This document shows, piece after piece, positions 37,423 through 61,265 of a DNA stretch of 64,000 nucleotides (position 1 is its first letter; each line of letters starts with the position of its first letter). Under the pieces are notes generated by a model that did not search any database, had not been told where the DNA came from, and saw only the letters and a program-made list of their open reading frames with translations. Origin of the DNA: Micromonospora echinospora (GTDB lineage Bacteria > Actinomycetota > Actinomycetes > Mycobacteriales > Micromonosporaceae); NCBI RefSeq assembly GCF_014203425.1, contig NZ_JACHJC010000001.1, positions 3,250,001 to 3,314,000 of the forward strand, in the 5' to 3' direction. The position numbers were made by a program, and so were the translations under genes.

Positions 37423-37471
37423 GGATGTCATCCTTTCCCCGGGGCGCGGTGCCGCCGGCGTCGATCTGCGT

Positions 37472-38957: not shown

Positions 38958-39007
38958 GGCGGTTCCTTCCCGTAGTCGATTGAAAATCGGTCGAGGGGTG
39001 GCGGGGC

Positions 39008-40669: not shown

Positions 40670-41283
40670 CGAACGAGCGACGCGATCCGTGCACGGTCGT
40701 CCGCCCAGTCGGTACGGCTGACCGCGACGAGGCAGGCGGTCTTGTGCGGCAGTTCGACCACGGCAACCTGCCGCATCCCGAGCATCCGGTGCAGGTTGAC
40801 CATCGACCGGTTCCGGATGTCGGGGTCTCCGATGTAGTGCTGCGCTGCAGGCCAGGTCTCGAAGGCCCAGTCGACGGCGTCCACGACGACCTCGAGAACG
40901 ACGCGTCGGTCCACTCGGTCCGTCGGGTCGACCAGCAGGTGCGACCCGCGTGCCTCGTCCTCGAGCAGGGGAACGCCGGCGAGCAGGCTGTCCTTTTTGG
41001 CATAGGCCTCGGCGTACGCCACCGGCCGCCCGTCCAGTTCACCGACGACCGGCTCGACCCCGAGCCGGTCCGCCGGCAGTGCCAGGTAGTCGCGCACCGT
41101 CTCCGGCCCGTACGGCGGCGGACCGACCTTCGCCACCCGGGGCGCCGTGCCCCAGTACGTTAGGACCGGCGCGGTCCACCAGCCCCAGATCGTCTCGGCG
41201 TCGGCCGCTCCGGCGGACCGCCAGACGAACGTGTGTCCGCGGCGCAGGTGCACGGTCCGGCGGATCCGCGTATGGGGTGTCAT
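40666..41283 (-). CDS. IucB/RhbD/MbtK-type N-acyltransferase (GNAT)
   Basis: This 205-residue GNAT belongs to the siderophore acyltransferase group (PF13523). Typical segments are VVGELDGRPVAYAEAYAKKD, SHLLVDPTDR, YIGDPDIRNRSMVNLHRMLGM and VELPHKTACLVAVSR. Members transfer an acetyl or long acyl group to the side-chain amine of hydroxylysine, hydroxyornithine or lysine; MbtK uses an ACP-bound fatty chain. With FAAL and ACP genes overlapping it, long-chain N-acylation is the natural inference. The acceptor amine (NRPS substrate, Dap, or a lasso-peptide lysine) is not known. Confidence 0.85.
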   Translation of the reverse strand: MTPHTRIRRTVHLRRGHTFVWRSAGAADAETIWGWWTAPVLTYWGTAPRVAKVGPPPYGPETVRDYLALPADRLGVEPVVGELDGRPVAYAEAYAKKDSLLAGVPLLEDEARGSHLLVDPTDRVDRRVVLEVVVDAVDWAFETWPAAQHYIGDPDIRNRSMVNLHRMLGMRQVAVVELPHKTACLVAVSRTDWADDRARIASLVR

Positions 41284-41284
41284 C

Positions 41285-42922: not shown

Positions 42923-43548
42923 CGCATCCCCCGTATCGAATCCCTGGATAGCTCGCTCGATCAACTACGCCGCAGGTAGGCGGCCGAGTGCCAGCGCCGG
43001 ACAGGTGCCGTCGCCGCGATCTGCCGCCTGCGGTGTGAATGCCTCAGAATGAAGTCGCCGTGCTATTGCCGATCGGCCTGGTTGAGCCGGAAGCGAGTCC
43101 CAGAGTGGACAGTGTGCGTCATCAACTCAAACACCCCCGCGTTTGTGTCAAGCCGTTGTCGGGTCTGCGCTGGGAACATTCCATGAATGTGTCGAAGATC
43201 CGTCAGTGACACCTGGGGTGATCACCGGCGCCATTGCAGAGAAAAAAGACGTATCGACGTTGCTACGGTAGGTGGTGCGGATGGTGTGGTCAACCCCCGT
43301 GCTGGTCGGTCCTCAAATGGACTGTAGTCGGCAGGAACGCTCGTTGCGCTCACCGGTGCGATCGATCGGCGAGCCGGCCGTGAACGGCGGCTGAAGGCCT
43401 GCTCGAAGGGTGGGAAACCGCATCCCGAAATTGGCCTTGACGAGGGCAGAGAAGGTCGCGCCCGCGGCGAGTCAACAATTGTCGCCGGGCCGGCCGCCCG
43501 CCCGCCGTTTCCGCTATTAGATCAGTGTCAGCGGAATTCGTCGGATGT
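42923..43548. other. Intergenic region upstream of flavoprotein operon
   Basis: These 626 bases carry no credible gene on either strand and are less GC-rich than the surroundings, especially 43100-43290. It separates the lipidation operon from the lasso/Dap operon, so it should contain the promoter for the former and the transcript end of the latter. I see no IdeR/DmdR-type iron box, no clear terminator hairpin and no convincing -35/-10 pair by eye. Confidence 0.55.
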
Positions 43549-43778: not shown

Positions 43779-44747
43779 TCAGTCCCGGCCGGCGAACGCG
43801 TGCTCAAGTACCGCCATCGCGCTGTACAGCTTCATCCGTGCCTGCGACCACGCGATCGAACGCGTCCCGTCCAGGACGGCTCCGGTGACCTCCTCGCCGC
43901 AGTGGGCCGGCAGGTCGTGCAGGAACAGCGCCTTGGGCGTACGCGCGAGAAACGTCTCGTCGACGTGGAACGGCCGGAACACCTCCCGCCAGTCCGGGTT
44001 CGGCTTGCTGGTGCCGGTGGTCTGCCAGCGCGTGGTGTAGACGAACTCCACGCTGTCCGGAACGGAGGCCGCGTCGTGCGTCTGGGTGACGGACCCCCCG
44101 TGCCCGGCGGCCCGGGCGGCCGTCGCCCTCAGCACGTCCTCGGGCAGCCCGAATCCGGCCGGAGTCAGCAGATGCAGCCGGGTACCGGCGAAGTTGCTCA
44201 GGCCCTGGGCGAGCGCGGTCGCGGTATTGTTGCCCTCACCGACGTAGAGCACCTCCACCCGGTCCAGCGACCCGCGGTGCAGCAGGATTGTGGCCAGGTC
44301 GCAGATTCCCTGGGTCGGGTGCTCCTCGGCGGCCATCGCGTTGATCACCGGGAGGCCGCTCTCCGCGGACAGCAGCCGCATGTCGGCCAGCGACCCGGCG
44401 GTGCGGATGACGACGCCGTCGAGCATCAGGCCCAACGTGCGCGCGGTGTGGGCGAGTGACTCACCGGTGTTGGTCTGCAGGTCGCCGGGGCCGTACCCGA
44501 TGGCCCGGCCGCCCAGCCGCTCGATGCCTGCGGTGAAAGCGGTCCGGGTCCGGGTCGACGTCCGGGTGAAAACCACACCGACGAGCCGCCCCCGCAGCGG
44601 CTCGTGGTGGGCGGCGGGATCGCGGTACAGATCGACCGAGCGGCGGGCCAACGCGCCCAGGACGTCCGGCGTGAGATCGGCCAGCGAGAGCACCCCGCAG
44701 GCGGCCCGGCGCGGCGGCAGCCCGGTGAAGGCATCGGTCATTGACAT
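43779..44747 (-). CDS. Ornithine-carbamoyltransferase homologue, probably acting on 2,3-diaminopropionate
   Basis: This 322-residue transcarbamoylase has the carbamoyl-phosphate loop STRTRT (residues 64-69) and HPTQ (143-146), so the first substrate is clear. The amino-acid site differs from true OTC: the HCLP motif is HDLP (near residue 280) and the DxWxSMG loop reads TRWQTTG, so ornithine is unlikely. Next to SbnA/SbnB genes, the likely acceptor is L-2,3-diaminopropionate, giving beta-ureidoalanine as in zwittermicin and capreomycin-type pathways; this is inference. ATG start after GGAGGGAA; 25 bases after the sbnA-like gene. Confidence 0.85.
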   Translation of the reverse strand: MSMTDAFTGLPPRRAACGVLSLADLTPDVLGALARRSVDLYRDPAAHHEPLRGRLVGVVFTRTSTRTRTAFTAGIERLGGRAIGYGPGDLQTNTGESLAHTARTLGLMLDGVVIRTAGSLADMRLLSAESGLPVINAMAAEEHPTQGICDLATILLHRGSLDRVEVLYVGEGNNTATALAQGLSNFAGTRLHLLTPAGFGLPEDVLRATAARAAGHGGSVTQTHDAASVPDSVEFVYTTRWQTTGTSKPNPDWREVFRPFHVDETFLARTPKALFLHDLPAHCGEEVTGAVLDGTRSIAWSQARMKLYSAMAVLEHAFAGRD

Positions 44748-44772
44748 GGGTCTTCCCTCCAGGTGGTGCGGC

Positions 44773-45786
44773 TCAGACAGGGTCGGGACAGGCGGCCGTG
44801 GGCACGTCGGACCTGCCGGTGGACGCCGGGGGCGAGTCGAGCCCGCGCTCGGCGAGCCAGCCGGGGTCGTACAGAGTGCCGGCGTACCGGTCGCCGAGGT
44901 CGGGGCTGATCGCGACCACGACCGAGCCCGGGCGCAGCATCCGGGCGCGCGCGGACACCCCGCTGAGTACCGCGCCGGTGGAGCCGCCGCCCAGCAGGAA
45001 GTAGCGGTTGCGCAGCAGCCGGCAGGCCCGCACGGTGTCGTACTCGGAGACCATCACCAGGTCGGTGACGTGCCGCAGGGAGGCGATCTCGGGTGTACGG
45101 CTGGTGCCCAGCCCCGGGATGTGCCGCCGCCCCGGCGGGGTGCCGAAGGTGGTCGACCCGATGATGTCGACGGCGAACACCTTCGTCTCCGGTCGGTGCT
45201 GGGCGAAGTACTGTGCGCAGCCGGTCAGCGTTCCGGTCGTGCCGGCGCCCACGAACACGGCGTCGACCTCCGGAAACTCCTTGAGGATCTCGGCGGCGGT
45301 GGTGTGATAGTGGGCCATCGTGTTGACCGGGTTGGCGTACTGGTTGGGCCAGACCAGCGTGGGGTCGGCCGCCATCCGTTCCTGCAGGTGGGCCAAGCGC
45401 ATCGACAGGAACCCGCCGTTCGCGTCCCGCTCGTCGATCACGACAACGCGGGCTCCGTACGCCCGCATCAGGGCGATCGTCGCCGGGGCCGTGTTCAGGT
45501 CGGTGACACAGGTGAAGCTGTATCCGCGGGCGTTGCACACGATGGCCAGCGCGATGCCGAGGTTGCCGGAGGACGACTCGATGACCCGGCTGCCGGGCCG
45601 TAGCAGCCCTCGCTGCTCCAGGTCGTCGACCATGGCCAGGGCCGGCTTGAACTTGATCGAGCCGGCGGGGTTCATCGCCTCGATCTTGAGGTAGAGGCGG
45701 CTGTCCGGCAGGAAGCCGGACAGTTCCAGGAACAAGTCGGGAAACTGGAGGTCCAGCGCGGATTGAAAGATCAACGGTAGCTCCAC
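44773..45786 (-). CDS. SbnA-like PLP synthase (2,3-diaminopropionate pathway, step 1)
   Basis: This 337-residue cysteine-synthase-fold enzyme has the PLP Lys in MNPAGSIKFKPALAM (near residue 36), the SSSGNLGIALAI loop and the phosphate-binding GAGTTGTLTG loop. SbnA-type enzymes join O-phosphoserine and glutamate to N-(1-amino-1-carboxy-2-ethyl)glutamate. GTG 45786 gives a start equivalent to SbnA (MELPLIFQSALDLQ); reading frame continues upstream into the sbnB-like gene, so a longer form overlapping it cannot be excluded. SbnA/SbnB pairing strongly supports Dap synthesis. Confidence 0.9.
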   Translation of the reverse strand: MELPLIFQSALDLQFPDLFLELSGFLPDSRLYLKIEAMNPAGSIKFKPALAMVDDLEQRGLLRPGSRVIESSSGNLGIALAIVCNARGYSFTCVTDLNTAPATIALMRAYGARVVVIDERDANGGFLSMRLAHLQERMAADPTLVWPNQYANPVNTMAHYHTTAAEILKEFPEVDAVFVGAGTTGTLTGCAQYFAQHRPETKVFAVDIIGSTTFGTPPGRRHIPGLGTSRTPEIASLRHVTDLVMVSEYDTVRACRLLRNRYFLLGGGSTGAVLSGVSARARMLRPGSVVVAISPDLGDRYAGTLYDPGWLAERGLDSPPASTGRSDVPTAACPDPV

Positions 45787-45829
45787 GAAGATGGTCGGGG
45801 ACGACGGCCGGACGTGGAAGACACGCGGT

Positions 45830-46864
45830 TCAGAGCAGTTCGAGGAGTTGCCCGGCGCCCGTCGCCCGCGCGACCTGGGCGACGGCATGGATCAGCGCGA
45901 CGTCCAGGACTGCCATGCCGAACGGGTTGCTGATGACGTATCCCTGCTGCGGGCGCTGCGCGGCGCGCCGGCCGATCAGCACCTCGCCGAGGCTGCCGTC
46001 GATCACCCGGGCGTCCGGCCGTCCGGGCTCATCGACCGTGGTCAGCGAGCCCTCCTGCAGCAGCCGCCCCATGACCCGGCGTGGGTTGTCCCGGACAAGC
46101 TCCACGTCGTCGACGAAGATCGCCTCCGCGGACCGGAACGCATCCTCGGTCAGGTCGTCGAGTGACACGTGCGCCACGAACGAACCGGCGGCCGGCCATC
46201 CGGCCGGGATGTAGGGGTCGTTGCTGGTGGTCGCGGTGATCAGGACCGGGGCGGCGCCGGCCGCCTGCCGGGCACCGGCTACGACGCTGACCTCCAGGTC
46301 GGGCCGTCGGGCCCGGAAATTCTCCCGGAACGCCCGGGCCCGAGCGGGTTCGAGGTCGAAGACGTACGCCCGCCGGACCGCCGGGAACGCCTCGACGATC
46401 GCCTCCAGGTGCACCCGCGCCAGCGTGCCGGTGCCGATCAGGCTGACCGCGTCGAACGACTCCGGGCCGAGATGGCGCAGGCTGACCACGGTGTAGGCGG
46501 CCGTACGGACCGCACTGAGCAGCCCGGCCTCGGCGACCACGCTGGGGCGTGCGGTCTCGGAGTCGAAGGTGAAGCTGAGACCGCCGGCGCGTTCCAGGCC
46601 GCGCTGGGGGTTGCTGACCGAGGCGTTGATCAGTTTCATGCCGTAGGCCATCGCGTCGCCCGACGGCACCGCGCCCAGCATCGCGATCGCCCGGCTGTAC
46701 GCGCCCACGCTGTTGGACCAGCTGAGGTAGCCCTCGGCCGGAAGCTCGGTGCGGCCGAGGGTGTGCTCACGCAGGGTGCGCGCCACCACCTCGGCGGCGT
46801 CCAGCTTCGACAGACACGCCGCGACGGCGGCGCGGTTCAGGAAACGAAGGCTTTCGCCTGGCAT
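45830..46864 (-). CDS. SbnB-like dehydrogenase (2,3-diaminopropionate pathway, step 2)
   Basis: This 344-residue member of the ornithine-cyclodeaminase/mu-crystallin family starts MPGESLRFLNRAAVAACL. The NAD motif SLIGTGTLARVHLEAIVEAFP lies near residue 140, and substrate-site sequence GYLSWSNSVGAYSRAIAMLGAV near 45. SbnB oxidatively cleaves the SbnA product to L-Dap and 2-oxoglutarate. It lies 61 bases after the thioredoxin-like gene on the same strand, so it probably shares the lasso operon transcript. Confidence 0.9.
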   Translation of the reverse strand: MPGESLRFLNRAAVAACLSKLDAAEVVARTLREHTLGRTELPAEGYLSWSNSVGAYSRAIAMLGAVPSGDAMAYGMKLINASVSNPQRGLERAGGLSFTFDSETARPSVVAEAGLLSAVRTAAYTVVSLRHLGPESFDAVSLIGTGTLARVHLEAIVEAFPAVRRAYVFDLEPARARAFRENFRARRPDLEVSVVAGARQAAGAAPVLITATTSNDPYIPAGWPAAGSFVAHVSLDDLTEDAFRSAEAIFVDDVELVRDNPRRVMGRLLQEGSLTTVDEPGRPDARVIDGSLGEVLIGRRAAQRPQQGYVISNPFGMAVLDVALIHAVAQVARATGAGQLLELL

Positions 46865-46925
46865 CTTCTTCTCACATCTCTCTACGGATCTCTTCGCCGG
46901 CCGGGCCGGGAGGTGGTCGGATGGG

Positions 46926-47426
46926 TCACGGCTCGGCGAGTCCGGGAACCGCGTCGGCGTGCACGCCGGTCCACGCCAGTCGCCCGTCCGGAGCCACCAC
47001 GAACAGCGCCGGGAAGCTTCGGATCCCGAACGCACGCCGTAACGACTCGTCGCTGTCCACGACGACCCGCGCGGCCGGGGCCAGCCCGGTCAGAAAGTCG
47101 GCGGAGGCGGTCGGCCCGGAGACCACGGCGACTGCCCGGTCCGGCCCGCCCGGCCACCGGGCGGCGACGCGGCCGAACCCCTTGCGTTCCTTGCGGCACC
47201 GGGTGCAAGTGGGCGAGAAGAACGCGACCAGCGTGTCCCCGTCGTGCCCGGCGAAGTCGTGCACGACCTCGCCGCGCGGCAGCGCCTGCGCGGGCACCCC
47301 ACGCTCCTCCACCTCGGTGAGCAGTTCGGCGTGGTAGCGCAGTCGCCGGACGAGCGCCACGTTCAGCGCGGTGTTGAACGCGCAGACCAGCGCGAGCAGG
47401 ACGACGACGGTGACGAGTACGCTCAT
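46926..47426 (-). CDS. Membrane-anchored thioredoxin-like (TlpA/MauD-type) protein
   Basis: This 166-residue protein has an N-terminal membrane helix (LVTVVVLLALVCAFNTALNVAL) and a thioredoxin-like domain outside the cytoplasm. The redox pair is in FFSPTCTRCRKERKGF (Cys-Thr-Arg-Cys near residue 74), and the cis-Pro region is FGIRSFPALFVVAPDGRL. With the MauE gene 6 bases upstream it forms a disulfide-handling pair. Because the lasso precursor core has two cysteines, a role in forming or isomerising that disulfide is likely. Confidence 0.85.
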   Translation of the reverse strand: MSVLVTVVVLLALVCAFNTALNVALVRRLRYHAELLTEVEERGVPAQALPRGEVVHDFAGHDGDTLVAFFSPTCTRCRKERKGFGRVAARWPGGPDRAVAVVSGPTASADFLTGLAPAARVVVDSDESLRRAFGIRSFPALFVVAPDGRLAWTGVHADAVPGLAEP

Positions 47427-47432
47427 CGGACC

Positions 47433-47972
47433 TCACAGGCGTGCCGGGAACAGGGACGTGATGTCGTTCAGCCGGACCAGGAACGCCGCGAGCAGCACCG
47501 CCGCGACGAGGCAGACCAGCACCCCGGCCAGGTCCGTGCCCTCGGTTCCGGCGACCCCGAGCGTGCTGCCCGCGCCCACGGCGGCCACGACCAGCAGCAG
47601 CGCGTTGCGCACCAGGCCGACCCGGCGGGTGGTGGCCGCCGAGCCGAAACACCCGCACGCGACGACCGGGCCGGCGTCCGGCATCCGGGCCAGCCGCCAG
47701 GAGAACAGCGACAGCAGCACGATCGCCGTAGCGGCCGCCCACGGGGCTGTCCGCGCCGGAACCGAACCGGCGGCCACCGCGGTCTCGCCAGCGACGATCA
47801 GTACCGCGAGCACGTCGGCGCGGCGATCCTGTAGGCCGGTCAGCGTGCGGGTGGCGTGCCGGAACCACGCAAAGGCGGGGGCGCCGCGGGTCTTGGCGGT
47901 CACCGACACCGCGAACACCAAGGCGAGCGTGCCACGGCAGATCCAGGAGAGGTACAGCAGCGTGGTGGTCAT
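47433..47972 (-). CDS. MauE/DoxX-like redox membrane protein
   Basis: This 179-residue protein has four to five membrane helices and the MauE signature ACGCFG (residues 105-110). MauE is needed for disulfide formation in methylamine dehydrogenase and recurs in RiPP clusters with thioredoxin-like partners. It overlaps the protease gene by ATGA, tying it to lasso-peptide production. Confidence 0.85.
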   Translation of the reverse strand: MTTTLLYLSWICRGTLALVFAVSVTAKTRGAPAFAWFRHATRTLTGLQDRRADVLAVLIVAGETAVAAGSVPARTAPWAAATAIVLLSLFSWRLARMPDAGPVVACGCFGSAATTRRVGLVRNALLLVVAAVGAGSTLGVAGTEGTDLAGVLVCLVAAVLLAAFLVRLNDITSLFPARL

Positions 47973-48403
47973 CCCGCGCTTCCTCGCTCGGCCGGCGGGA
48001 CGGTCAACAGCGGGATGTGGAAGTCGGGCGGGTACGGCTCGTCCACGGCGGTGCCCTGGGCCTCAACCCATGCATGCGCGCCGAACGGCGGGTGCCGGCG
48101 GACGCCGGCGACCCAGGTCGGCCAACCGCCGCGGATGCGGCAGAGCAGCGCGGTGGTGATCGACCGGGGCAGGCAGCCCAGCGGGCCCGCACAGAAGGCA
48201 CTGTTCGCCACCGTGTGCCGGCGGGCGGCAGCGGCTTCGGCGAAGGTCGCGGGCCGGGCACCGCGGCTCGCCTGACGCAGCACCCAGCAGATCTGCGCCG
48301 GAGGGCGCCGGGCCAGCACCCGCGCGAAGGCCACCACGCTCAGCACCCCGAGCCGTCGGCCCAGCCGGCCCGGCCGGTGGGCGAGAACCTGCTCGGTGGT
48401 CAT
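47969..48403 (-). CDS. Lasso peptide leader protease (B2, transglutaminase-like)
   Basis: This 144-residue transglutaminase-like Cys protease removes the leader peptide. Catalytic Cys is in FCAGPLGCLPRSI, His in PPFGAHAWVEAQG, and the acidic residue in AVDEPYPPDFHIP, the usual order for the split lasso B2 protein. ATG 48403 overlaps the B1 stop. It requires the separate RRE protein encoded immediately upstream. Confidence 0.93.
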   Translation of the reverse strand: MTTEQVLAHRPGRLGRRLGVLSVVAFARVLARRPPAQICWVLRQASRGARPATFAEAAAARRHTVANSAFCAGPLGCLPRSITTALLCRIRGGWPTWVAGVRRHPPFGAHAWVEAQGTAVDEPYPPDFHIPLLTVPPAERGSAG

Positions 48404-48660
48404 GTCGCGACCACCAGACCGGCGGACCGCAGTTCGGCGAGGAACGCCGGCACGTCGGCGGCCATCGCCTCCGGGTCGCCGTCGAACTCGGCCGCGAGCC
48501 GGTCGGTCACCTGCGCCATCGGCGCGTCCTCCAGGATCGAGGCGAGCGCGGTGGTGGCGGTCGCGTTCAAGGTCCAGTACTCGCCGGAGGCGGAATCCAG
48601 GAGCACGCCGCCGTACTCGGTCGGCGTCCAGGAAACGTGGGCGGGCAGGGTCCAGCTCAT
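48400..48660 (-). CDS. Lasso peptide RRE protein (B1, PqqD-like)
   Basis: This 86-residue PqqD-fold protein (SWTLPAHVSWTPTEYGGVLLDSASGEYWTLNATATTALASIL, then RLAAEFDGDPEAMAADVPAFLAELRSAGLV) is the RiPP recognition element that binds the precursor leader and delivers it to B2. ATGA overlaps on both sides couple it to cyclase and protease genes. Confidence 0.93.
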   Translation of the reverse strand: MSWTLPAHVSWTPTEYGGVLLDSASGEYWTLNATATTALASILEDAPMAQVTDRLAAEFDGDPEAMAADVPAFLAELRSAGLVVAT

Positions 48661-50501
48661 CGGTTGTGCTCTCCGTTTCCGCGGATCGGTGTCTCGTGGA
48701 CGCGCAACCAGGTTTCGGCGGCCAGCGTCTGGTCGAGGTCGTAGAAGGTGCGATCACCGGGCGTCTCGAGCGCGGCGCGCAGGGCCGCGCCGTCGATCAG
48801 GCCACGCTCGGCCAGCCGCGATCGTTCCGCCAAATCGAGCAGCGCGGCGCGGTGACGGTCGGCACCCAGCAGCGCGGCGATGGAGGTGTCGGCCTTGGTC
48901 GACCGGCTGCGCAGCGCTTCCGGCAGGACGTCACGCATCGCCCGGACGATCAGGGGCTTGTACTGCTGCGGTGAGGCGATGTCGGCGGTGCGTACGCTCA
49001 GGCTGACCTTGACCACCTGATCGTCCAGGTAGGGCAGCGCGGCGGTCACCCCGACCCGCCGGGACGCCTGGGCCAGATGCCGGCCGGCGGCTGCGCCGGC
49101 GTACAGCCCGGCCAGCCGGCCGTGCAGCCCGCGGTCGTCCTGCAGGGGGTTCGCCGCCGAGGCGTGGTCGCGGAGGATCCGGCGTACGGTGGCGCGGGCG
49201 TCGGGTGCGGTCCAGGGGGCCAGGCCGACCGGTGGCCCCCAGCTCAGCATCGGACCGTTGAAGCCGGCCTCCTCGGCGGCGAGCCCGTCGGCGAGTGAGT
49301 CGAACCAGCCGCCGTACGAACGCCGGTCGAGCACCGCCCGCAGGGTGGCGCCATGCTTCCAGCGATAGGCCGCGCGCAGGAGTCGCAGGTGGCGAAGGGC
49401 GAGGCGGGGATGCGTACGCAGGAGGGTGAGCTGCAGGGCCGGGTCGGCCGTGAGCAGTTCGTCGCCGCCGAAGCCGGTGAGGCGTACCCGGGCGCCGTGG
49501 TCGGCGGCCCGGCGTGAGGTGGCCAGGAACCCGGCGCGGTACATGACCGCCGCGGTGGGCTCGTCGAACCGATCGGCGGGCTCGTGCAGATCGGTGTAGG
49601 GCAGCGGGTTCGCGTCGCCGGCAACCACCTCATGAGTCACCTTGCCGAGTTCGCGCGCGGCCAGCTCGGCCCAGGGCAGGTCGTCGTCGAGCGGGTCCGG
49701 GCTGACGCAGGTCAGGCCGACCACGTTGCGGCCCTGCCGCACGGCGAGCGCGCAGAGCGAGGTCGAGTCCATGCCGCTCAGGTCGCTGGAGATCACATCG
49801 CCGGGGCCGCCCCGGACCGCGACGGCCTCGGAGAGTGCCTGGTGCAGGCCGACGGCTGCGGTCTCGAGGTCGAGCGACGGCTCGGGCGGCTGCCACCGTC
49901 GCCGGGCGCGCGGCGTTCCCGCGAGGTCGAGGACGAGCCGTTCGTCCGGCCGCACGGCGCGAATGCCCCGCCATACCGGCTGCCAGAACATCGGCCACGG
50001 CGAGAACGGGGTGAGCAGCCGCAGTGCCAGCGCCTCGTCGTCCACCTCGGCCCCGGTCAGGGCGGCCAGCACGTCGGCGCGGTCCGAGACCAGGGCCGGT
50101 CCGCCAGCGCGGTGGTGGTAGACGCGCCGGTAGCCGGAGAGGCTCCCCTGTACGGCGACACCGCCGGGCGCCGAGGCGATCGCGTGGAAGCTGCCCGGTT
50201 CGTCCTGCACGGTCGCGCAGAGCCGCTCGGTGTCCTGCGCGCCACGCGCGAGCCGGAGCAGGTCCTCGGCGGAGAGCCGGTGCTCGCCGAGCACGGCGAG
50301 GCGGTTCGGGCCGAGTTCGGCCGCCACCGCCTCGCCGGGCTGCCAGCGACCCACCAGCCAGGGGCGACCGGACGCGTGGCCGATCGTCTGCAGCACGCCG
50401 GTGAGCTGCTCCAGACGTCGCGCCAGGGGCTTTCCGGCGTCGCTGTCCGGCAGCACCACGAACCACGACACTTGTGACGCCGGGTCTGGCAACTGCGTCA
50501 T
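48657..50501 (-). CDS. Lasso peptide macrolactam synthetase (asparagine-synthetase-like)
   Basis: This 614-residue enzyme adenylates the ring Glu/Asp and forms the isopeptide bond with the core N-terminus. The AsnB-type ATP motif is SSDLSGMDSTSLCALAV near residue 240. The N-terminal glutaminase-like domain lacks a position-2 Cys, as normal for lasso cyclases. ATRWKHGATLRAVL-type helices and SRSTKADTSIAALLGADRH near the C-terminus complete the synthetase domain. It starts 32 bases after the precursor gene. Confidence 0.93.
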   Translation of the reverse strand: MTQLPDPASQVSWFVVLPDSDAGKPLARRLEQLTGVLQTIGHASGRPWLVGRWQPGEAVAAELGPNRLAVLGEHRLSAEDLLRLARGAQDTERLCATVQDEPGSFHAIASAPGGVAVQGSLSGYRRVYHHRAGGPALVSDRADVLAALTGAEVDDEALALRLLTPFSPWPMFWQPVWRGIRAVRPDERLVLDLAGTPRARRRWQPPEPSLDLETAAVGLHQALSEAVAVRGGPGDVISSDLSGMDSTSLCALAVRQGRNVVGLTCVSPDPLDDDLPWAELAARELGKVTHEVVAGDANPLPYTDLHEPADRFDEPTAAVMYRAGFLATSRRAADHGARVRLTGFGGDELLTADPALQLTLLRTHPRLALRHLRLLRAAYRWKHGATLRAVLDRRSYGGWFDSLADGLAAEEAGFNGPMLSWGPPVGLAPWTAPDARATVRRILRDHASAANPLQDDRGLHGRLAGLYAGAAAGRHLAQASRRVGVTAALPYLDDQVVKVSLSVRTADIASPQQYKPLIVRAMRDVLPEALRSRSTKADTSIAALLGADRHRAALLDLAERSRLAERGLIDGAALRAALETPGDRTFYDLDQTLAAETWLRVHETPIRGNGEHNR

Positions 50502-50533: not shown

Positions 50534-50665
50534 TCAACTGCAGATGGCCCTCGGCTTCTGGGTGACGTACGACTCGCGGCAGTTGGTGAAGAGGCTGCCG
50601 GCGGTCTTGTGGGCGAACGCGCCACCCCTGGTCAGCGTCGGGCGCTGGTACGACTTCTTGGCCAT
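50534..50665 (-). CDS. Lasso peptide precursor, predicted class III (one ring-tail disulfide)
   Basis: This 43-residue precursor has an ATG preceded by GGAAGGAG. The leader ends with YQRPTLTRGGAFAHKTAG, an exact match to the actinobacterial pattern YxxPxLxxxGxFxxxTxG, with Thr at -2. Cleavage before Gly23 gives a 21-residue core: Gly1, Glu9 (ring of nine), Cys7 in the ring, Cys20 next to the C-terminal Ser, one Tyr (11), one Lys (15) and Pro16. One ring-tail Cys pair with a nine-residue ring recalls BI-32169. The core sequence itself is not one I recognise. Genes for cyclase, RRE protein, protease and exporter flank it. Confidence 0.93.
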   Translation of the reverse strand: MAKKSYQRPTLTRGGAFAHKTAGSLFTNCRESYVTQKPRAICS

Positions 50666-50750
50666 CTCGATGCACTCCTTCCCGGTGGGTAACTCGGACC
50701 GGTCCAGGCCGCTCCTACCGCGGGTCATCGGGCGAGCCTGGGCCTGAGGC

Positions 50751-52541
50751 TCAAGTCTCGGGGCGCTCTCTATATCCACTCGATACCGCGACGGCCGGGA
50801 CGTGAGGTTCGATGAGCAACTGGGTCTCGGCCAGGCGCCGGTACAGGTCGTCACGGTCGATCAGGCTCTCGTGCGTGCCGACCGCGCGTACCCGCCCGGC
50901 TTCCAGCACCACGACGCGGTCGGCATCGAGGACGGTGGACAACCGGTGGGCGGCCATCAGCACGGTCGTGGTCCGGGCCACCCCGGCGACCAGGTCGCGC
51001 AGTGCCTGCTCGTTCACCGCGTCCAGGTGTGCGGTCGGCTCGTCGAGCAGCAGCAGGCCCGGCCGGCGCAGCAGCGCCCGGGCGATCGCGATGCGTTGGC
51101 GTTCGCCGCCGGACAGCGTCGCCCCGCGCTGGCCGATCCGTGTGTCGAGGCCCTGGGGCAGCCGGCGGACGAGGGAAACCAGCATGGCTTGCTCGAGGAT
51201 CTCGTCGATCCGGCCGTCCGGGGCGTCCGCGGCACCGAGCAGCAGGTTGTCGCGCAGGGTTCCGGAGAGCACCGGCGCCTCCTGCTCGACGTATCCGATC
51301 CGGGCCCGCAGCTCACGCAGCGGCCACTGCCGTACGTCCCGGTCGCCGACCTCGAGGTGACCGGAGGTCGGGTCCTGGAACCGCTCGACGAGCGAGAGCA
51401 GGGTGCTCTTGCCGGCCCCGGACGGGCCGACCAGGGCGGTCAGGCCGGTGGCCGGGATCCGCAGGGTCACGTCGGTCAGCACTTCCGGGTCCTGCGGGCG
51501 GTGGCGCAACGAGACACCGTGGAACGCCACCGACATCGGCCCGATCGCCTCGGTGCTCGGCGCGGCGCGCCCGCCCGGGTCCTCGGCGGGCATCCGCACG
51601 ACCGCGTCGATCCGGCCCACCGCGGCCAGCCCGGCCTGTAGTCCGGTCACCCCGCCGGCCAGTTGGGACACCGGCCCGGCCAGGTAGAACAGGTACAGCA
51701 GGAAGGCGACCAGCGACGACACGGTCAGGTCGTCGGCGGCGACTCGGGCCCCGCCGACGCCGAGCACGACGACGAACGCCAGTTGCACGGCGAGGCCGGT
51801 GGTGACCCCTGCCGCGGAGACCCAGCGCGCCGCCTGCCGACCGCGTCGCCACGCCTGGATCGCCGCGCTGTGCGCCGCCGCGGTCTGCTGCCGTTCGGCG
51901 CCGTTGGCCTTGACCGTCCGGAACGCGCCGAGCGCGCGGGCCAGCACCGCGCCGAGCCCACCCACCGCCGCCTGGGTCCGCTCGCTGACGTCGCGGATCC
52001 GCGCGGCGAGCAGCGCGGTGACGCCGAGCAGCAGCACCAGGACCAGGGTCACCACGCCGAGCAGCACCAGGTCGAGGCGGGCCATCAGCACGACCGCGCC
52101 GCCGATCTGGAACACGCCGGTGACGAGATCGACGACGTTCGTGGTGGCGGCGGACCGTAGCTGGGTGGTGTCGCCGGTGACCCGGGACAGCAGGTCACCG
52201 GACTCGGCCCGATCCATCACGCCGACGCGGAGGTGGAGCAGCCGGTCGATCAGGCGGCGGCGGGCGTCGAGCACCACGCTCTCGGCGGTGGCCTCCAGCA
52301 GGTACATGCCGCCGGCACCGACCAGTGCGCCGGCCACCAGGAGCGTGGTCAGCAGGATCACCGGGCCGGCGAACGACGCGTCGCCTGTCAGCCCGTCCAG
52401 CAGGTGCTTGACCGCGAGCGGCTGGGCAAGGTTGACCAGGCCGCCGAGAAACATCAGGCCGGCACCGACCAGAAGACCGCCGGTGTGCGGCCGCATGTAG
52501 CGCATGAGCAGCCGTATCGGAGCGCGGGCAGGGCTGGTCAT
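50751..52541 (-). CDS. ABC transporter (lasso peptide exporter)
   Basis: This 596-residue protein fuses six membrane helices with an ATPase domain. Walker A is [16 protein letters not shown] near residue 375, the signature is [21 protein letters not shown] and Walker [13 protein letters not shown]. It ends 86 bases before the precursor gene and is the first gene of the operon. Export and possibly self-immunity for the lasso peptide are inferred from position. Confidence 0.92.
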
Positions 52542-55058: not shown

Positions 55059-56000
55059 ATGGCCGGGCAGAGCTGGAAGCCGCTGGACATCACGGCGCAA
55101 GACATCGGTGTCGCGGCCACACCCGAGGCGCTCATCGGCCATCTCGACGACCTCGGCGGCGAACTCGACGATCTCCTCGTCCGAGAGAAGGCCCTGGTGT
55201 TCCGGGGCTTCGGCGTGGCGCCCGAGAAATTCGACGCCGTCCTCGACCGGCTGCTGCCGCACCGGCTCGCATACGTCAACGGCAACTCGCCGCGTACCAA
55301 GGTGGGCTCGAACGTCTACACCTCGACCGAGTACCCGCCCGAGTTCACGATCTCCATGCACAACGAGATGTCGTACGCATCCCGCTGGCCCAGCAGGCTC
55401 GCGTTCTTCTGCCAGATCGCCGCGGCGACCGGTGGCGCGACCCCGCTGGTGGACGCGGCGCTCTGGCTCGAATCGCTCGACCCCGAGGTGCGCGAGGCGT
55501 TCGCCGGCGGGGTGCGCTACACCCAGAATCTGCATGGCGGCCAGGGCCTCGGCAAGAGCTGGCAGCAGACGTTCGAGACCGACGACCGGGCGGTGGTCGA
55601 CGACTACCTCGAGGCGGCCGGCGCGGAGTGGACCTGGCGGGCGGACAACAGCCTGCACGTCGAGCAGCCGCGGCCGTCCACCATCCGGCACCCGGTGACC
55701 GGCACCGAGGTTTGGTTCAACCAGTCCGACCAGTGGCACCCGGCGGCGCTGGGCGACGAGACCGCCAAGGCGCTGGCCCAGATCCTGCCGCCTGAGGAGC
55801 TGCCGCAGTACGTCACGTTCGACGACGGCAGCACGATCCCCGACGAGTACGTCATCCAGGTGCGCGACCGTGGCCTGGAGAACGCGGTCGACGTCGACTG
55901 GCGGGTCGGCGACGTCATGGTCTTCGACAACCTGCTGGTCGCGCACGGCCGCCGGCCGTTCACCGGCGCCCGCCGCATCCTCGTCGCGATGACGGGCTGA
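55059..56000 (+). CDS. SyrP-like Fe(II)/2-oxoglutarate hydroxylase (TauD/TfdA family)
   Basis: This 313-residue dioxygenase starts at ATG after AGGGGAAGGA. The iron ligands are His101 and Glu103 in SMHNEMSY (HxE variant) and a distal His in LVAHGRRPF near residue 296; the 2-oxoglutarate Arg is in FTGARRILVAM. The HxE pattern and LVREKALVFRGFG start match the SyrP group, which beta-hydroxylates carrier-bound Asp in peptides and siderophores. Adjacent MbtH and NRPS genes support action on an NRPS-bound residue, possibly that of the second adenylation domain. Confidence 0.88.
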   Translation: MAGQSWKPLDITAQDIGVAATPEALIGHLDDLGGELDDLLVREKALVFRGFGVAPEKFDAVLDRLLPHRLAYVNGNSPRTKVGSNVYTSTEYPPEFTISMHNEMSYASRWPSRLAFFCQIAAATGGATPLVDAALWLESLDPEVREAFAGGVRYTQNLHGGQGLGKSWQQTFETDDRAVVDDYLEAAGAEWTWRADNSLHVEQPRPSTIRHPVTGTEVWFNQSDQWHPAALGDETAKALAQILPPEELPQYVTFDDGSTIPDEYVIQVRDRGLENAVDVDWRVGDVMVFDNLLVAHGRRPFTGARRILVAMTG

Positions 56001-56050
56001 CCCGACCTACCTTCCCGCTGTTCCGCGATCCGTCGAACAAGGAGTTGCAC

Positions 56051-56266
56051 ATGTCCGAGCAGACCCCCGCCACCCACCGCGTCGTGCTCAACGACGAGGA
56101 GCAGTACTCGATCTGGTGGGTCGATCGTCACCTACCCGCGGGGTGGCACGCCGAGGGCTTCACCGGCAGCGAGGAGGAATGCCTGGCGCACATCGACACG
56201 GTGTGGACCGACATGCGCCCGGCGAGCCTGCGCCGCCGCATGGCCGAACATGCCAGCGCCACCTGA
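56051..56266 (+). CDS. MbtH-like protein
   Basis: This 71-residue protein shows the MbtH signature: NDEEQYSIWWVDRHLPAGWHAEGFTGSEEECLAHIDTVWTDMRPASLRRRM. MbtH proteins bind and activate NRPS adenylation domains. AAGGAG lies upstream of ATG. It sits 34 bases before the NRPS gene, as usual. Confidence 0.96.
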   Translation: MSEQTPATHRVVLNDEEQYSIWWVDRHLPAGWHAEGFTGSEEECLAHIDTVWTDMRPASLRRRMAEHASAT

Positions 56267-56300
56267 CATCCGAGCCAGTCGCCGAGGAGACAGCACTGCC

Positions 56301-59300
56301 ATGCCCGCGATCCCGCCGAACAGCACCCAGGCCGTCACGGCACTCACGCCTGACCTCATCGGCTCCCAGGCAGTGCGCACGCCGGACGCCGTAGCCGTCA
56401 TCGACGGCGTCCGGCGGCTGACCTACCGGGAACTGGATGTCCGCTCCGCCCAGCTCGCCCACTACCTGCGGGAGCGGGGCGCCGGGCCCGGCACCCACGT
56501 CGGTGTGCTGCTCGGCCGGGGCCTCGACCTGATTCCGGGGCTGCTCGGGGTCTGGCGCGCCGGCGCCGCTTACCTGCCGCTCGATCCGGCCCACCCGCAG
56601 AGCCGGGTAGACGGGATCATCGCCGCGTCGGGCTGCCGGCTCGTGCTCTGCGACGTCGCCGACGCGGACAGGGTGACCGCGGCGGGTGCCGAGCCGATCC
56701 ACCAGGCGGAACTCGCCGCCGAGCTGGCGGCCCGCCCGGCCACGCCGCCGGTGGTCGACCTGAGCGCAGACCACGCCGCGTACGTCGAGCACACCTCCGG
56801 CTCCACCGGCATGCCCAAGGGCGTGGTGGTGACCCACGGCGGCTTGGCCAACCTCATCGACTGGGCGGTGCGCGACGTCGGGATCACCGGGACCGACCGG
56901 GTGCTGCAGCGCACCTCGCTGGTCTACGACGCGCACGCCTTCGAGGCGTTCTCCCCGCTGGTGTGCGGTGGCACGCTCGTGCTCGCCCCGGCGGACGACA
57001 CCGCCCCGGCCACGCTGCTGACTGTGATCGCCGCGCACGCGGTGACCGTCATGCAGGTCGTCCCGTCGATCCTGCACACGCTTGTCGAGGAGGACGGCTG
57101 GCAGCAATGCTCCGCGCTGCGTCTCGTCGTCTCCGGCGGTGAACAGCTGCACGCCGAGCCGGTCGAGCGACTGCGCACGCTGGCCGACGTCGTGGTGTGG
57201 AACGTCTATGGCCCCACCGAGACCACCATCAACTCCCTCGCCACCCGGGTCGACCCGGCGCAGCGGACCGGGCCGATCCCGATCGGGCGACCGCTGCCGC
57301 GCACCCGGGTCCAGGTCGTCGACGAGCGCGGCCGGGTCGTCGGGGTCGGCGTCGCGGGAGAGCTGCTGATCGGCGGCGTCGGCCTGGCCCGCGGCTACCT
57401 CGGCAAGCCGGTACTGACCGCCGAGAAGTTCGTTCCGGACGCGCTGGCCGGCGACGGCGGCCGCGTCTACCGCACCGGCGACTGCGTACGGTGGCGCCCC
57501 GACGGGATGCTTGAGTACCTGGGCCGGCTCGATGACCAGGTGAAGGTCAACGGGGTCCGGCTCGAGCCCGCCGAGATCGAGGCGGCGATCGCCGCCTACC
57601 CGGACGTCGTGGCCGCGGCGGTCACCTCGTACCGGCTGGCGGACGGCGCGGCCCGGTTGGTCGCTTACGTCGTTCCCCGCACCGGTGCCGACCAGGACCT
57701 CGACGCCTCGCTGCGGACGCACCTGCTCGACAGGCTGCCGCAGTCGCACGTACCCGGCCGGTTCGTCCACCTCGACGCGCTCCCGCAGGTCGCCAGCGGC
57801 AAGGTCGACCGTCGTGCGCTGCCGCATCCCGACGAGACCGGGTCGGACGAGTCGCGCACCGCCACCGCCCCCACGACCCCGTCCGAACGGCTCGTCCAGA
57901 GCGCCTGGCAGGGCCTGCTCGGCTCCGCCGGTGACGGTCACGAGCTGACTCTCGAGGACGACTTCTTCCGACTCGGCGGCACCTCGCTGCAGCTGACGAA
58001 GCTGCTGTCCGAGCTTCGCGCGCGGACCGGGGCCGACCTCAACCTGCGCTCCCTGCTGTACGCCCCGACCCTGCGCGCCCAGGCCCGGCTGCTCGACGCC
58101 GCGCAGGCCGACCACGGGTTGCCCCGCGTCGCGCGCGAGGGCGGGGTGCCGCTGTCCAGTGGCCAGCGGCGTCTGTGGTTCATGGACCGGCTCAACCCGG
58201 CCAGCCCCGAGTGGATGGCCGGGCTGCTGTTCCGGCTGCCCGCCGGGGCCGGCCGCACGCTCGCCGAGCAGGCCCTGAACATCCTGGTGGCGCGGCACGA
58301 GGCGCTGCGCACCCGATACCGTGAGGTGGACGGCGAGCCGCGCCAGTTCGTCCGGCCCGCGCTCACGATCGAAGTCGGCGAGCAGCACACCACGCCGGCC
58401 GACCTGCCCGACCGGCTGGCCGGGCTGCTGGGCCACGGGATCGCGTTGAGCGGAGACGAGCCGCTGCTGCGCGCGGTCGTGCTTCACGTCTCCGACGGAC
58501 GGCGGCTGCTGGCGGTCGCCATGCACCACATCACCACCGACGGCTGGTCGGCGGCCGTGCTGGAGCGCGAGTTCGCGCAGGTTGCCGACGCGCTGATGGC
58601 CGGTCGTGCGCCGGACCTGCCGGCGCTTCCGGTCCAGTACGCCGACTTCGCCGCGTGGCAGCGCGGCCGGCTCACCGACGAGGTCGTCAAGGCGGAGCTG
58701 GGCCACTGGGCGGGTGTACTCGACGGACACCAGCCGCTCACGCTGGCCACCGACCACCCCCGCCCGCCGGTTCGAGACGGCAAGGGCTCAATCGTCCGGG
58801 TCACCGTGCCCGCCGCGCTGCTACACAAGCTGGACGAACTCGCCGCCGGCATCGGCGCGACCCGGTTCACCGCGATCCTCGGCGTCTACGCGATGGTACT
58901 CGCCCGCTACAGCGGCCAGTGGGACATCCCGATTGGTACGGTGGTCGCCGGCCGCGGTCGCGCCGAACTGGACGGCGTGGTCGGGTTCTTCCTCAACAAC
59001 CTCGTGCTGCGCTGCAAGCTCGACCCCGCGTCGACCGTGACCGAGACGGTGGCCCGGCTCGCGACCGTCACCCGGGACGCCTTCGCCCACCAGGAGCTGC
59101 CGTTCGATCTGCTGGTGGACCATCTGGTCCCGGACCGCGACCTGTCCCGTACCCCGCTCTACCAGGCCGCCTTCGACCTGCATGGCGAGGATTTCAACGA
59201 GACCGTTGACGACGACCTGGACACGGTCCGACGGATGTGGCGGGTCACCCACACCGACCTGACCCTGCTGCTGCGCCCGACCGGCGACGGCGGGCTGGTC

Positions 59301-61265
59301 GGCGGCCTGGAGTACGCCAGCAGCCTGTTCGACGAGGACACCGCCGAGCGGATGGCCAGGACCTTCGAGCACGCGCTGGCCGCGGCCGCCGCGGCGCCGG
59401 ACACCCCGCTGGCGTCGTTGCGGGCGTTGACCGGGAAGGACGCCGCCGACCTCGAGCGGTGGAGCAACGGCGGGCCGCCGGTCGAGGGCGCGATCGTGCC
59501 CGTCCGGCTGGTCGAGCAGGGCGCCCGGACACCGGACGCGGTCGCCGTGCGCGGCGACGGCTTCGCGCTGACCTTTGGCGAGCTGCTGAGCCGGGCCGGT
59601 GCGGTGGCCCAGTCGCTGCGCGCCGCCGGCGTGGCTCGCGGTGACCGGGTCGGCGTGCTGATCGAGCGCGGCCCGTGGCTGCACGCCGCGTTCCTGGGCG
59701 TGTGGCTGTCCGGGGCGGCGTTCGTGCCGGTGGACCCGGGCTTCCCGGTGGGACGCGTGCAGTCGATGCTGGTCGGTGCCGCCGCGCTGGTGACCGACGC
59801 GTCGCAGGCCGGTGTCTTCGACGGCCCGGTGACGGTGGTCGACGACCTGAAGCCGGCGGTTGCCGCGCCGGTCGAGCTGGACCCGGACGAACTCGCGTAC
59901 GTCATCTACACCTCCGGCTCGACCGGCCGGCCCAAGGGCGTCGGGGTGACCCATCGAGGGCTGGCGAACCATCTGAGCTGGGCGGTCCGGGAACTCACAA
60001 CGGCCGGCGGTACGGGCGGGGCGGTGTTCTCGTCGGTGGCCTTCGACCTGGTGCTGCCAAACGTGTGGGCGCCACTGCTGGCCGGGCAGCCGGTGCACCT
60101 GCTCCCGCAGGATCTGGACCTGGCCGAGCTGGGCTCGCGGCTGGCCGCCGCCGGACCGTTCGCGTTCCTGAAGCTGACGCCGGGCCACCTGGAGGTGCTG
60201 TCCCATCAGCTCTCCGTCGACGAGGTACGGGATCTGGCCGGCGTGACGGTCGTCGCGGGCGAGGCGCTGCCGGGCGCACTGGCGGGCCGCTACTCGGATT
60301 CGGGCCGTCTGGTCAACGAGTACGGCCCGACCGAGGCAAGCGTGGGTACCAGTACCTACCAGGTCCTGGCCGACCCGGGCCCGGGCGTGGTGCCGATCGG
60401 CTCCCCGCTGCCGGGCATGGTGATGCGGGTCCTCGATGAGCGGTTGGACCAGGTGCCGGTCGGCGCGCTCGGTGAACTCTGCGTCGGCGGCGTCGGCGTC
60501 GCCCGCGGCTATGTGGACCGGCCGGCGCTGACCGCGTCCCGGTTCGTCCCCGACCCCTGTGGCCCGGGGGGTTCCCGCCTGTACCGCTCGGGTGACGTCG
60601 TTCGCTGGCGGGGCGACGGCGTGGTCGAATTCCTCGGCCGGGTCGACGACCAGGTCAAGATCCGCGGCTACCGGGTCGAGACAGGCGAGATCGAGACGGT
60701 CCTGCGCGAGCACGCCGGCATCACCGACGCGCGAGTCGTGGTCGACGAGCGAAGCGGCGCGAAGCGGCTGATCGCGTACTGGGTGCCGGTCGGCTCGGAC
60801 CCGGTCGCCGACGAGGTTCTGCGCGAGCACTGCGCCGGCCTGCTGCCGGACTTCATGGTCCCCGCGTCGTTCATCGCGATTCCGGCGATCCCGCTCAACG
60901 CCAACGGCAAGCTCGACCGGACCGCGCTGCCCGATCCCACCCCACCGGCCCCGGGCACGGACGAGGAGCCGCTGTCGCCGGTCGCCGAGTTCGTCCAGCA
61001 GCTCTGGCGGGAGAAGTGCGGGATCGTGGCCCGTCCCGGGGAGAACTTCTTCCACGCCGGCGGCAACTCGATCACCGCGATCCGCCTGATCGCCGCCATC
61101 CAGGATGAGTTCGGCGTCACGCTGCCCGTCCGCGCCGTGTTCGAGGGGCCGACCGTCGTCGAGATGGCCCAGTTGATCGAAAACCTGATCCGTGACGAGA
61201 TCGACCAGATGTCCGACTCGGAGGTCGTCGCGGAACTCACCATGACCGAGGAGCCGCAGGCATGA
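56301..61265 (+). CDS. Nonribosomal peptide synthetase, modules A-T-C-A-T
   Basis: This 1654-residue synthetase starts at ATG with GAGGAG upstream. Adenylation domain 1 (about residues 20-510) has YVEHTSGSTGMPKGVVVTHGG and VYGPTETTI; T1 carries FFRLGGTSLQLTKL (Ser near 562). The condensation domain (about 612-1035) has PLSSGQRRLWFMDRL and MHHITTDGW. Adenylation domain 2 (about 1060-1545) has VIYTSGSTGRPKGVGVTHRG and EYGPTEASVG; T2 has FFHAGGNSITAIRL. By-eye specificity codes are roughly DAFQVSVIN(K) for A1 (no match recalled) and DLPKVAEVG(K) for A2, close to the Asn/Asp type. It starts with an A domain, so it either initiates synthesis or accepts a loading step elsewhere. No epimerase or thioesterase domain is present. 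Confidence 0.93.
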   Translation: MPAIPPNSTQAVTALTPDLIGSQAVRTPDAVAVIDGVRRLTYRELDVRSAQLAHYLRERGAGPGTHVGVLLGRGLDLIPGLLGVWRAGAAYLPLDPAHPQSRVDGIIAASGCRLVLCDVADADRVTAAGAEPIHQAELAAELAARPATPPVVDLSADHAAYVEHTSGSTGMPKGVVVTHGGLANLIDWAVRDVGITGTDRVLQRTSLVYDAHAFEAFSPLVCGGTLVLAPADDTAPATLLTVIAAHAVTVMQVVPSILHTLVEEDGWQQCSALRLVVSGGEQLHAEPVERLRTLADVVVWNVYGPTETTINSLATRVDPAQRTGPIPIGRPLPRTRVQVVDERGRVVGVGVAGELLIGGVGLARGYLGKPVLTAEKFVPDALAGDGGRVYRTGDCVRWRPDGMLEYLGRLDDQVKVNGVRLEPAEIEAAIAAYPDVVAAAVTSYRLADGAARLVAYVVPRTGADQDLDASLRTHLLDRLPQSHVPGRFVHLDALPQVASGKVDRRALPHPDETGSDESRTATAPTTPSERLVQSAWQGLLGSAGDGHELTLEDDFFRLGGTSLQLTKLLSELRARTGADLNLRSLLYAPTLRAQARLLDAAQADHGLPRVAREGGVPLSSGQRRLWFMDRLNPASPEWMAGLLFRLPAGAGRTLAEQALNILVARHEALRTRYREVDGEPRQFVRPALTIEVGEQHTTPADLPDRLAGLLGHGIALSGDEPLLRAVVLHVSDGRRLLAVAMHHITTDGWSAAVLEREFAQVADALMAGRAPDLPALPVQYADFAAWQRGRLTDEVVKAELGHWAGVLDGHQPLTLATDHPRPPVRDGKGSIVRVTVPAALLHKLDELAAGIGATRFTAILGVYAMVLARYSGQWDIPIGTVVAGRGRAELDGVVGFFLNNLVLRCKLDPASTVTETVARLATVTRDAFAHQELPFDLLVDHLVPDRDLSRTPLYQAAFDLHGEDFNETVDDDLDTVRRMWRVTHTDLTLLLRPTGDGGLVGGLEYASSLFDEDTAERMARTFEHALAAAAAAPDTPLASLRALTGKDAADLERWSNGGPPVEGAIVPVRLVEQGARTPDAVAVRGDGFALTFGELLSRAGAVAQSLRAAGVARGDRVGVLIERGPWLHAAFLGVWLSGAAFVPVDPGFPVGRVQSMLVGAAALVTDASQAGVFDGPVTVVDDLKPAVAAPVELDPDELAYVIYTSGSTGRPKGVGVTHRGLANHLSWAVRELTTAGGTGGAVFSSVAFDLVLPNVWAPLLAGQPVHLLPQDLDLAELGSRLAAAGPFAFLKLTPGHLEVLSHQLSVDEVRDLAGVTVVAGEALPGALAGRYSDSGRLVNEYGPTEASVGTSTYQVLADPGPGVVPIGSPLPGMVMRVLDERLDQVPVGALGELCVGGVGVARGYVDRPALTASRFVPDPCGPGGSRLYRSGDVVRWRGDGVVEFLGRVDDQVKIRGYRVETGEIETVLREHAGITDARVVVDERSGAKRLIAYWVPVGSDPVADEVLREHCAGLLPDFMVPASFIAIPAIPLNANGKLDRTALPDPTPPAPGTDEEPLSPVAEFVQQLWREKCGIVARPGENFFHAGGNSITAIRLIAAIQDEFGVTLPVRAVFEGPTVVEMAQLIENLIRDEIDQMSDSEVVAELTMTEEPQA

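Follow-up and report, generated by a model that had tools for sequence, protein, structure and literature searches.

Two class III lasso peptides, BI-32169 and 9401-LP1, are named in the available sections of PMC9266682 and PMC13352647, where the formation of lasso disulfides is called unknown. BI-32169 (GLPWGCPSDIPGWNTPWAC; PMC12427821, excerpted text) had no known gene cluster as of 2022 according to the same part of PMC9266682. For 9401-LP1 (AFGPCVENDWFAGTAWIC) a single disulfide was proven with DTT (PMC5974421 Table 1), and the excerpted text of PMC9266682 lists nothing in its cluster beyond the A–D genes. That text also describes the class I peptide sviceucin and its kin, two-disulfide peptides whose clusters encode a DoxX protein and a TDOR (sviE/sviF); it reports that sviceucin and MS-271 are still produced after loss of sviF, mslE or mslF, and that MS-271 then appears without thiol intermediates.

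Here we analyse a lasso peptide locus in a 64,000-nt stretch of Micromonospora echinospora DNA (the window). With a probability of about three in four, we read it as a complete and conserved lasso operon with a predicted class III product, in which a co-operonic pair of MauE-type and thioredoxin-fold (Trx) proteins would serve the thiols of the peptide.

A lasso operon with a predicted class III precursor

The sequence-only reading of this DNA had proposed a new class III-type lasso precursor at 50534..50665, and this interval is exactly one minus-strand gene, embedded in the following features:

50534..50665, minus strand: lasso precursor A, 43 aa and a stop (44 codons), placed by frame boundaries, PF19397 and homologues
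50600-50665, minus strand: leader of A, M1-A22
50537-50599, minus strand: core of A, G23-S43
50534-50536, minus strand: stop codon of A
50675..50680, minus strand: AAGGAG ribosome-binding site, 9 nt before the ATG of A
48657..50501, minus strand: C, lasso cyclase (asparagine-synthetase-like), 614 aa; PF00733, E 1.3e-30
48400..48660, minus strand: B1, PqqD-like RiPP recognition element (RRE), 86 aa; PF05402, E 3.2e-14; NF033530, 81.0 bits (cut-off 70)
47969..48424, minus strand: B2, leader peptidase, 151 aa; PF13471, E 4.4e-24; NF033537, 101.8 bits (cut-off 33)
47433..47972, minus strand: MauE-type membrane protein, 179 aa, with a CGC motif; PF07291, E 7.6e-19, 68.7 bits (cut-off 27)
46926..47426, minus strand: Trx, membrane-anchored thioredoxin-fold protein, 166 aa, with a CTRC motif; profile search and structure model
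50751..52541, minus strand: D, ABC exporter (membrane and ATPase parts), 596 aa; PF00664, PF00005
53088..54923, plus strand: SARP-type regulator (BTAD); PF03704, E 1.1e-37

The precursor, MAKKSYQRPTLTRGGAFAHKTAGSLFTNCRESYVTQKPRAICS, has a leader that fits YxxPxLxxxGxFxxxTxG, as had been claimed, and a regular expression for leader plus core has a single match in the window and none in 60 first-order Markov windows of equal composition. Pfam PF19397 (DUF5972) covers residues 3-31 (E 3.5e-11), a search of the precursor against NCBIfam gave no match, and a genome search showed the gene to be single in its own genome. Purine-rich sites also lie upstream of the precursor starts of relatives.

The predicted core, GSLFTNCRESYVTQKPRAICS, carries Gly1, Cys7, Glu9 and Cys20. 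Everything the sequence-only reading said of its residues is correct, including Asn6, Arg8, Lys15, Pro16 and Arg17, of which relatives vary at two (position 6 is N or S, position 17 R, K or A). The recognisable leader, the Thr at −2 and an Asp/Glu at core positions 7-9 mark a lasso precursor, and one cysteine in the ring, one in the tail and none besides is the cysteine arrangement of class III. The sole aromatic residue of the tail (S10-S21), Y/F11, adjoins the ring, and with R, K or A at position 17 and no aromatic in the far tail, a bulky plug is not evident. For the lasso product with one disulfide, the calculated monoisotopic mass is 2339.1151 ([M+2H]2+ 1170.5648, [M+3H]3+ 780.7123); applied to 9401-LP1, this calculation yields 983.9162, against a reported 983.92.

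The split B (RRE B1 and B2 peptidase) and the asparagine-synthetase-like C adjoin the precursor, as is required of a lasso cluster. Transcription on the minus strand runs D, A, C, B1, B2, MauE, Trx; neighbours from C through MauE overlap or almost touch, and 6 nt separate MauE from Trx, so an operon, headed by A, is likely. C scores 231.5 bits against NF033561 (albusnodin/ikarugamycin-type cyclase), below the cut-off of 300, and we therefore call it a cyclase from its Pfam family, its context and its conserved ATP loop, whose residues S231, G232, D234, S235 and T236 are kept in 59-65 of 65 rows; a search of C against solved structures gave 0 matches. In B2, one Cys and one His are kept in all 67 rows. 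The SARP-type protein is the likely regulator of the region.

Two redox genes directly downstream of B2

The operon ends in two genes that the sequence-only reading had not mentioned. The CxC of the MauE-type protein is invariant in 11/11 rows. Trx matches Pfam weakly (best E 0.0024), and a profile built from 18 relatives finds StoA (E 1.8e-12), ResA (E 8.4e-8) and, lower down, DsbF. A structure model of Trx (mean pLDDT 84.9) is matched by Foldseek to thioredoxin-like proteins with probability 1.00 and modest TM-scores near 0.5, presumably because the membrane helix has no counterpart in them; ResA and CcmG types, which are reducing, are among the closest solved folds. Its CxxC and the subsequent Pro of the fold (P139) are invariant in 9/9 and in 18/18 rows; thioredoxin fold, CxxC and conserved Pro are features of TlpA/ResA-like thiol-disulfide oxidoreductases. 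None of the 18 relatives has K/R before the membrane helix, whereas several K/R follow it (read directly in 14 of the 18 rows), and the alignment shows no variation at R27 or R30. By the positive-inside rule, applied to these charges, the CxxC domain would be cytoplasmic. The domains of StoA, ResA and DsbE-like proteins are extracytoplasmic.

Orthologous operons in other genomes

Precursor homologues are present in Micromonospora sp. NPDC051300 (P0004) and M. inaquosa (P0005), both named keywimysin-related RiPP by NCBI. Orthologues were found in three of 160 genus genomes besides the window's own (G033, G047, G071), and a fifth genus-genome match, G058 (E 0.0059), has no adjoining lasso genes. 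Further homologues lie on contigs of Plantactinospora mayteni and M. inaquosa, and more were found via B2. The core GSLFT[NS]CRES[YF]VTQKP..[IV]C[SN] is common to the window and seven loci (L006, L007, L008, L020, L024, L028 and L029); across these, 15 of the 21 core residues are invariant, including G1, C7, E9 and C20, with many silent codon changes. All seven keep the order A-C-B1-B2-MauE-Trx. The core of a ninth locus, L027, is divergent (GTIRGCAKELIFARPPYLCS; Cys6/Cys19, Glu9), and the order C-B1-B2-MauE-Trx holds in 9/9 loci. A homologue of D (47-75% identity) adjoins the lasso genes in L006, L020, L024, L027, L028 and L029, with none beside those of L007 or L008, and a SARP homologue adjoins them in L020 (79%) and L006 (38%).

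The full A-C-B1-B2-D set, the conserved G1, E9, C7 and C20 and the 13-residue distance between the cysteines thus bear out the proposed class III-type precursor. Four core strings searched in mostly non-subscription literature returned no identical peptide. The peptide is not a lone one: it belongs to a family with orthologues in at least 8 genomes.

Cysteine cores and redox genes across lasso loci

We sampled 300 family and 394 class genomes and fetched lasso loci from them via B2, giving 115 loci including the window and L006-L008. One B2 search, with 120 rows, led to 80 fetched loci and left out G504 (stronger, at a contig edge), 38 weaker rows and the window's own; a second set of 38 rows led to 31, the others being the window's own, G071 and five weak rows. 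Iterated profiles from the window's proteins detected MauE in 13 and Trx in 9 of the 115. A strict precursor rule was satisfied in 67 loci, which were tabulated, and the 48 loci outside the table contained neither MauE nor Trx.

Both genes are confined to loci whose cores carry at least two cysteines (MauE in 13/21, Trx in 9/21) and occur in 0/46 loci below that number (45 cysteine-free, one with a single cysteine). When the window, L006 and L008, which had been selected through the precursor, are set aside, six Trx and ten MauE loci are left. Trx marks precisely the window's clade of nine loci, in each of which the core has a single ring and a single tail cysteine. MauE occurs without Trx in the class I loci L019 and L056, which have a different CxxC protein missed by the Trx profile, and in the class IV-like loci L063 and L075. 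A search for other oxidoreductases, by rough ORF calling in 13 loci, turned up CxxC proteins in L019 and L056 as well as some of uncertain placement in L015, L041 and L105; none was confirmed by family search. Eight loci with at least two core cysteines lack MauE (L015, L021, L022, L041, L051, L097, which is cut off downstream, L099 and L105), so the pair is not required for every cysteine core.

In a cyclase tree built by a quick method from 65 of the 67 loci, the nine loci form one fully supported clade nested among cysteine-free class II clusters; their sister grouping with IGNKGPKD-type cores has support of 93 and is not starred. A starred branch parts them from L021, the sole BI-32169-like row, which falls in the class I/IV part of the tree and has neither MauE nor Trx. 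We therefore rejected membership of a BI-32169 family by descent, and the tree suggests that the class III ring-tail architecture arose more than once. Changes counted on it, with L097 dropped, number three for MauE, one for Trx and seven for cysteine cores, so few independent events underlie the association. Fisher's exact tests (6.9e-6 for Trx, 8.0e-9 for MauE; kinship uncorrected, L097 included) overstate the evidence, because there are three MauE groups, all with cysteine cores, and one Trx group; a pairwise sign test cannot reach significance here.

Counted by hand, the cysteines are 13 residues apart in BI-32169, 9401-LP1, the window's family, L027 and L021. As a rule for ring-tail pairs this distance was discarded, failing in L015 (11), L099 (9), L051 (12) and L105 (16).

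Several loci in this set have features of their own. The L099 core, GMFYASCKEFWSRRLCI, resembles the 9810-LP-type GYF.GSYKEYW.RRI. cores of its tree neighbours L064 and L093 with two positions changed to Cys, and may represent an independently evolved ring-tail disulfide in a locus lacking MauE/Trx. The L105 core, SLGRLSCNDILGFRALWTTSPAC, beside its cysteine-free sister SLGSADERDIFGYRALIVIHP (L035), marks another gain or loss of a cysteine pair. In the class IV-like (LP2006-like) clusters L063 and L075, the MauE genes (8019-8543 and 8085-8621) lie directly 3' of B2; a review, in its available part, states that the class IV clusters then known shared no additional genes.

The lasso operon is nested in an NRPS cluster

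The lasso operon lies inside an NRPS cluster of about 53 kb, likewise absent from the sequence-only reading, with these features in or beginning in the window:

45830-46867, minus strand: SbnB, from family searches
44773-45792, minus strand: SbnA, from family searches
43779-44747, minus strand: carbamoyltransferase, from family searches
55059..64000, plus strand: TauD-type hydroxylase, MbtH and NRPS genes, the cluster extending past the window to ~97.2 kb (window numbering)

The first three genes (43779..46867) are co-directional with the lasso operon, SbnB following Trx after a gap of 58 nt. Genome G285 (locus L020) retains the carbamoyltransferase, SbnA, SbnB, lasso operon, D, SARP, TauD-type hydroxylase, MbtH and NRPS genes: collinearity, at 63-91% identity, extends to 21 of the 22 ORFs called from 43.8 to 97.2 kb, and the lasso operon sits at the corresponding place. 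The six called ORFs of the left flank (36.7-43.0 kb) have no match in G285. On the right flank, the sole match of an NRPS gene is to a different part of the cluster, and later ORFs match nothing until one weak terminal match.

By inference, G285 is Actinoplanes sp. SE50. The coordinates of its cluster fall within cluster 2 of SE50/110 in PMC11626248 Table 1 (994,953-1,075,026; 'NRPS, lassopeptide, and betalactone'), an antiSMASH prediction only, to which the excerpted text of that paper assigns no product. This cluster equals ours in the gene order of lasso operon and NRPS genes, and its core differs at positions 6, 11, 17, 19 and 21.

SbnA, SbnB and carbamoyltransferase genes accompany NRPS genes without lasso genes on two Streptomyces plasmids (L143, L144), for which reason we rejected them as lasso tailoring enzymes; they are predicted members of the NRPS pathway. 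In L027, a TauD-type gene (41%) and NRPS genes adjoin the lasso genes, and in six of the eight related lasso loci no SbnA, SbnB, carbamoyltransferase or TauD homologue was found in the fetched DNA, the flanks of G190, G234 and G047 being partial. Collinearity with G285, together with the lasso-free NRPS-type genes, leads us to view the lasso operon as a long-retained guest that moved with the NRPS cluster in two genomes, and we read it as not part of the NRPS cluster's chemistry.

The carbamoyltransferase shares 99% identity with a counterpart in Micromonospora aurantiaca and about 80% with those in Actinoplanes capillaceus and Actinoplanes sp. SE50; there may therefore be additional copies of the NRPS cluster. 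Outside the collinear stretch, window positions 34980-42964 hold a second co-directional gene set, in which Pfam identifies AMP-binding (39008-40669) and FAD-NAD(P)-binding (41285-42964) genes; acyl-CoA-dehydrogenase-like and sulfotransferase-like are guessed names for others.

Discussion

With BI-32169, the predicted peptide shares a nine-residue ring closed on Gly1 and single ring and tail cysteines 13 residues apart, but BI-32169 has Cys6/Cys19 in place of 7/20, Asp9 in place of Glu9, a tryptophan-rich tail and an otherwise dissimilar core. The cysteine spacing of 9401-LP1 is the same, whereas that peptide starts with Ala1, has an aromatic tail and comes from a cluster reported to be free of extra genes, unlike the present operon with its MauE and Trx. 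The pair of membrane protein and thioredoxin recalls sviE/sviF by description. Two features are shared with keywimysin-type peptides: the NCBI naming of P0004 and P0005, and a cyclase that falls within one broad side of the tree together with those of clusters with LLxxxGNDRLILSKN cores, which we take to be keywimysin-like; those cores lack cysteine and their clusters lack MauE and Trx.

By analogy with the known pathway, the RRE B1 would bind the YxxPxL leader, B2 would cleave after Thr-Ala, and C would join Gly1 to Glu9 to close the ring around the threaded tail. Ring residue Cys7 and tail residue Cys20 would then form one disulfide locking the thread; because the tail has no aromatic plug, this may be the main lock, which would explain the invariant C20. 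The MauE/Trx pair might act on the thiols by oxidation, isomerisation or redox-coupled export, and D would export the product. The SARP regulator probably switches the region on, and an extracellular site of action is probable for the product. Judging by association, fold and motifs, MauE/Trx most likely serves these thiols and is the best candidate to serve the ring-tail disulfide, and we are cautious about its redox role because reported class I deletions left disulfides intact, some class III-like loci lack the pair and the Trx charges suggest a cytoplasmic domain.

Other readings were weighed. A chance or decayed small ORF might be expected in GC-rich DNA, which is rich in short ORFs, but the PF19397 match, homologues, conservation, gene order and Markov simulation rule it out for practical purposes. 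A more serious competitor, though still the less probable account, is that the disulfide forms spontaneously after export and MauE/Trx instead has a role in transport, quality control or the host envelope. The sviceucin and MS-271 deletions reported in PMC9266682 (excerpted text) point this way, as do the class III-like loci without the pair (L015, L021, L099, L105 and L051, the last with Cys3/Cys15); the presence of the pair in 9/9 clade members from several genera, directly 3' of B2, and in 0/45 loci with cysteine-free cores argues against it. It is unlikely, in our estimate, that the pair is instead reductive or isomerising and keeps the cysteines reduced or reshuffled until threading and ring closure are done. 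The ResA- and CcmG-type folds closest to Trx, as well as charges that would place the CxxC in the cytoplasm, where B1, B2 and C act, would suit such a role, but its StoA-, ResA- and DsbE-like kin work outside the cytoplasm, and the direction of a redox reaction is not readable from sequence.

The link between the lasso peptide and its surroundings is more evenly poised. That the operon is an accidental passenger of the NRPS cluster, its product unlinked to the other, has about even odds: the lack of NRPS-side homologues in the fetched DNA of most related lasso loci and the lasso-free NRPS-type genes of the Streptomyces plasmids speak for it, whereas the collinear G285 cluster, with the operon in the corresponding place, and the TauD-type and NRPS genes of L027 speak against it. 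A bolder version of our preferred reading, a conserved class III operon whose redox pair serves the thiols, is that this is a second origin of class III in which MauE/Trx was acquired with the cysteines, and makes or proofreads a disulfide that is the sole lock, the peptide being deployed with the NRPS product; we hold this to be rather doubtful. If it were true, the plugless tail would leave the disulfide as sole lock, and the redox pair would set whether the lasso exists at all.

A predicted class III lasso peptide is already known in kind. To the extent that we found none of them described in the literature searched, which included few subscription papers and no supplementary lists of mining studies, three things are new: the core family, its placement apart in the tree and the occurrence of a redox pair in a class III operon; among the matches listed for lasso peptides with MauE, TlpA or thioredoxin, only PMC9266682, seen as an excerpt, mentions 'lasso peptide'. 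Class III is the least known disulfide class among lasso peptides. The orthologous two-cysteine peptides with their linked redox pair, the related Cys6/Cys19 locus L027 and the cysteine-free sister clusters form a natural set bearing on two questions, namely whether an enzyme makes the disulfide of a lasso peptide and whether the thread is held by that bond alone.
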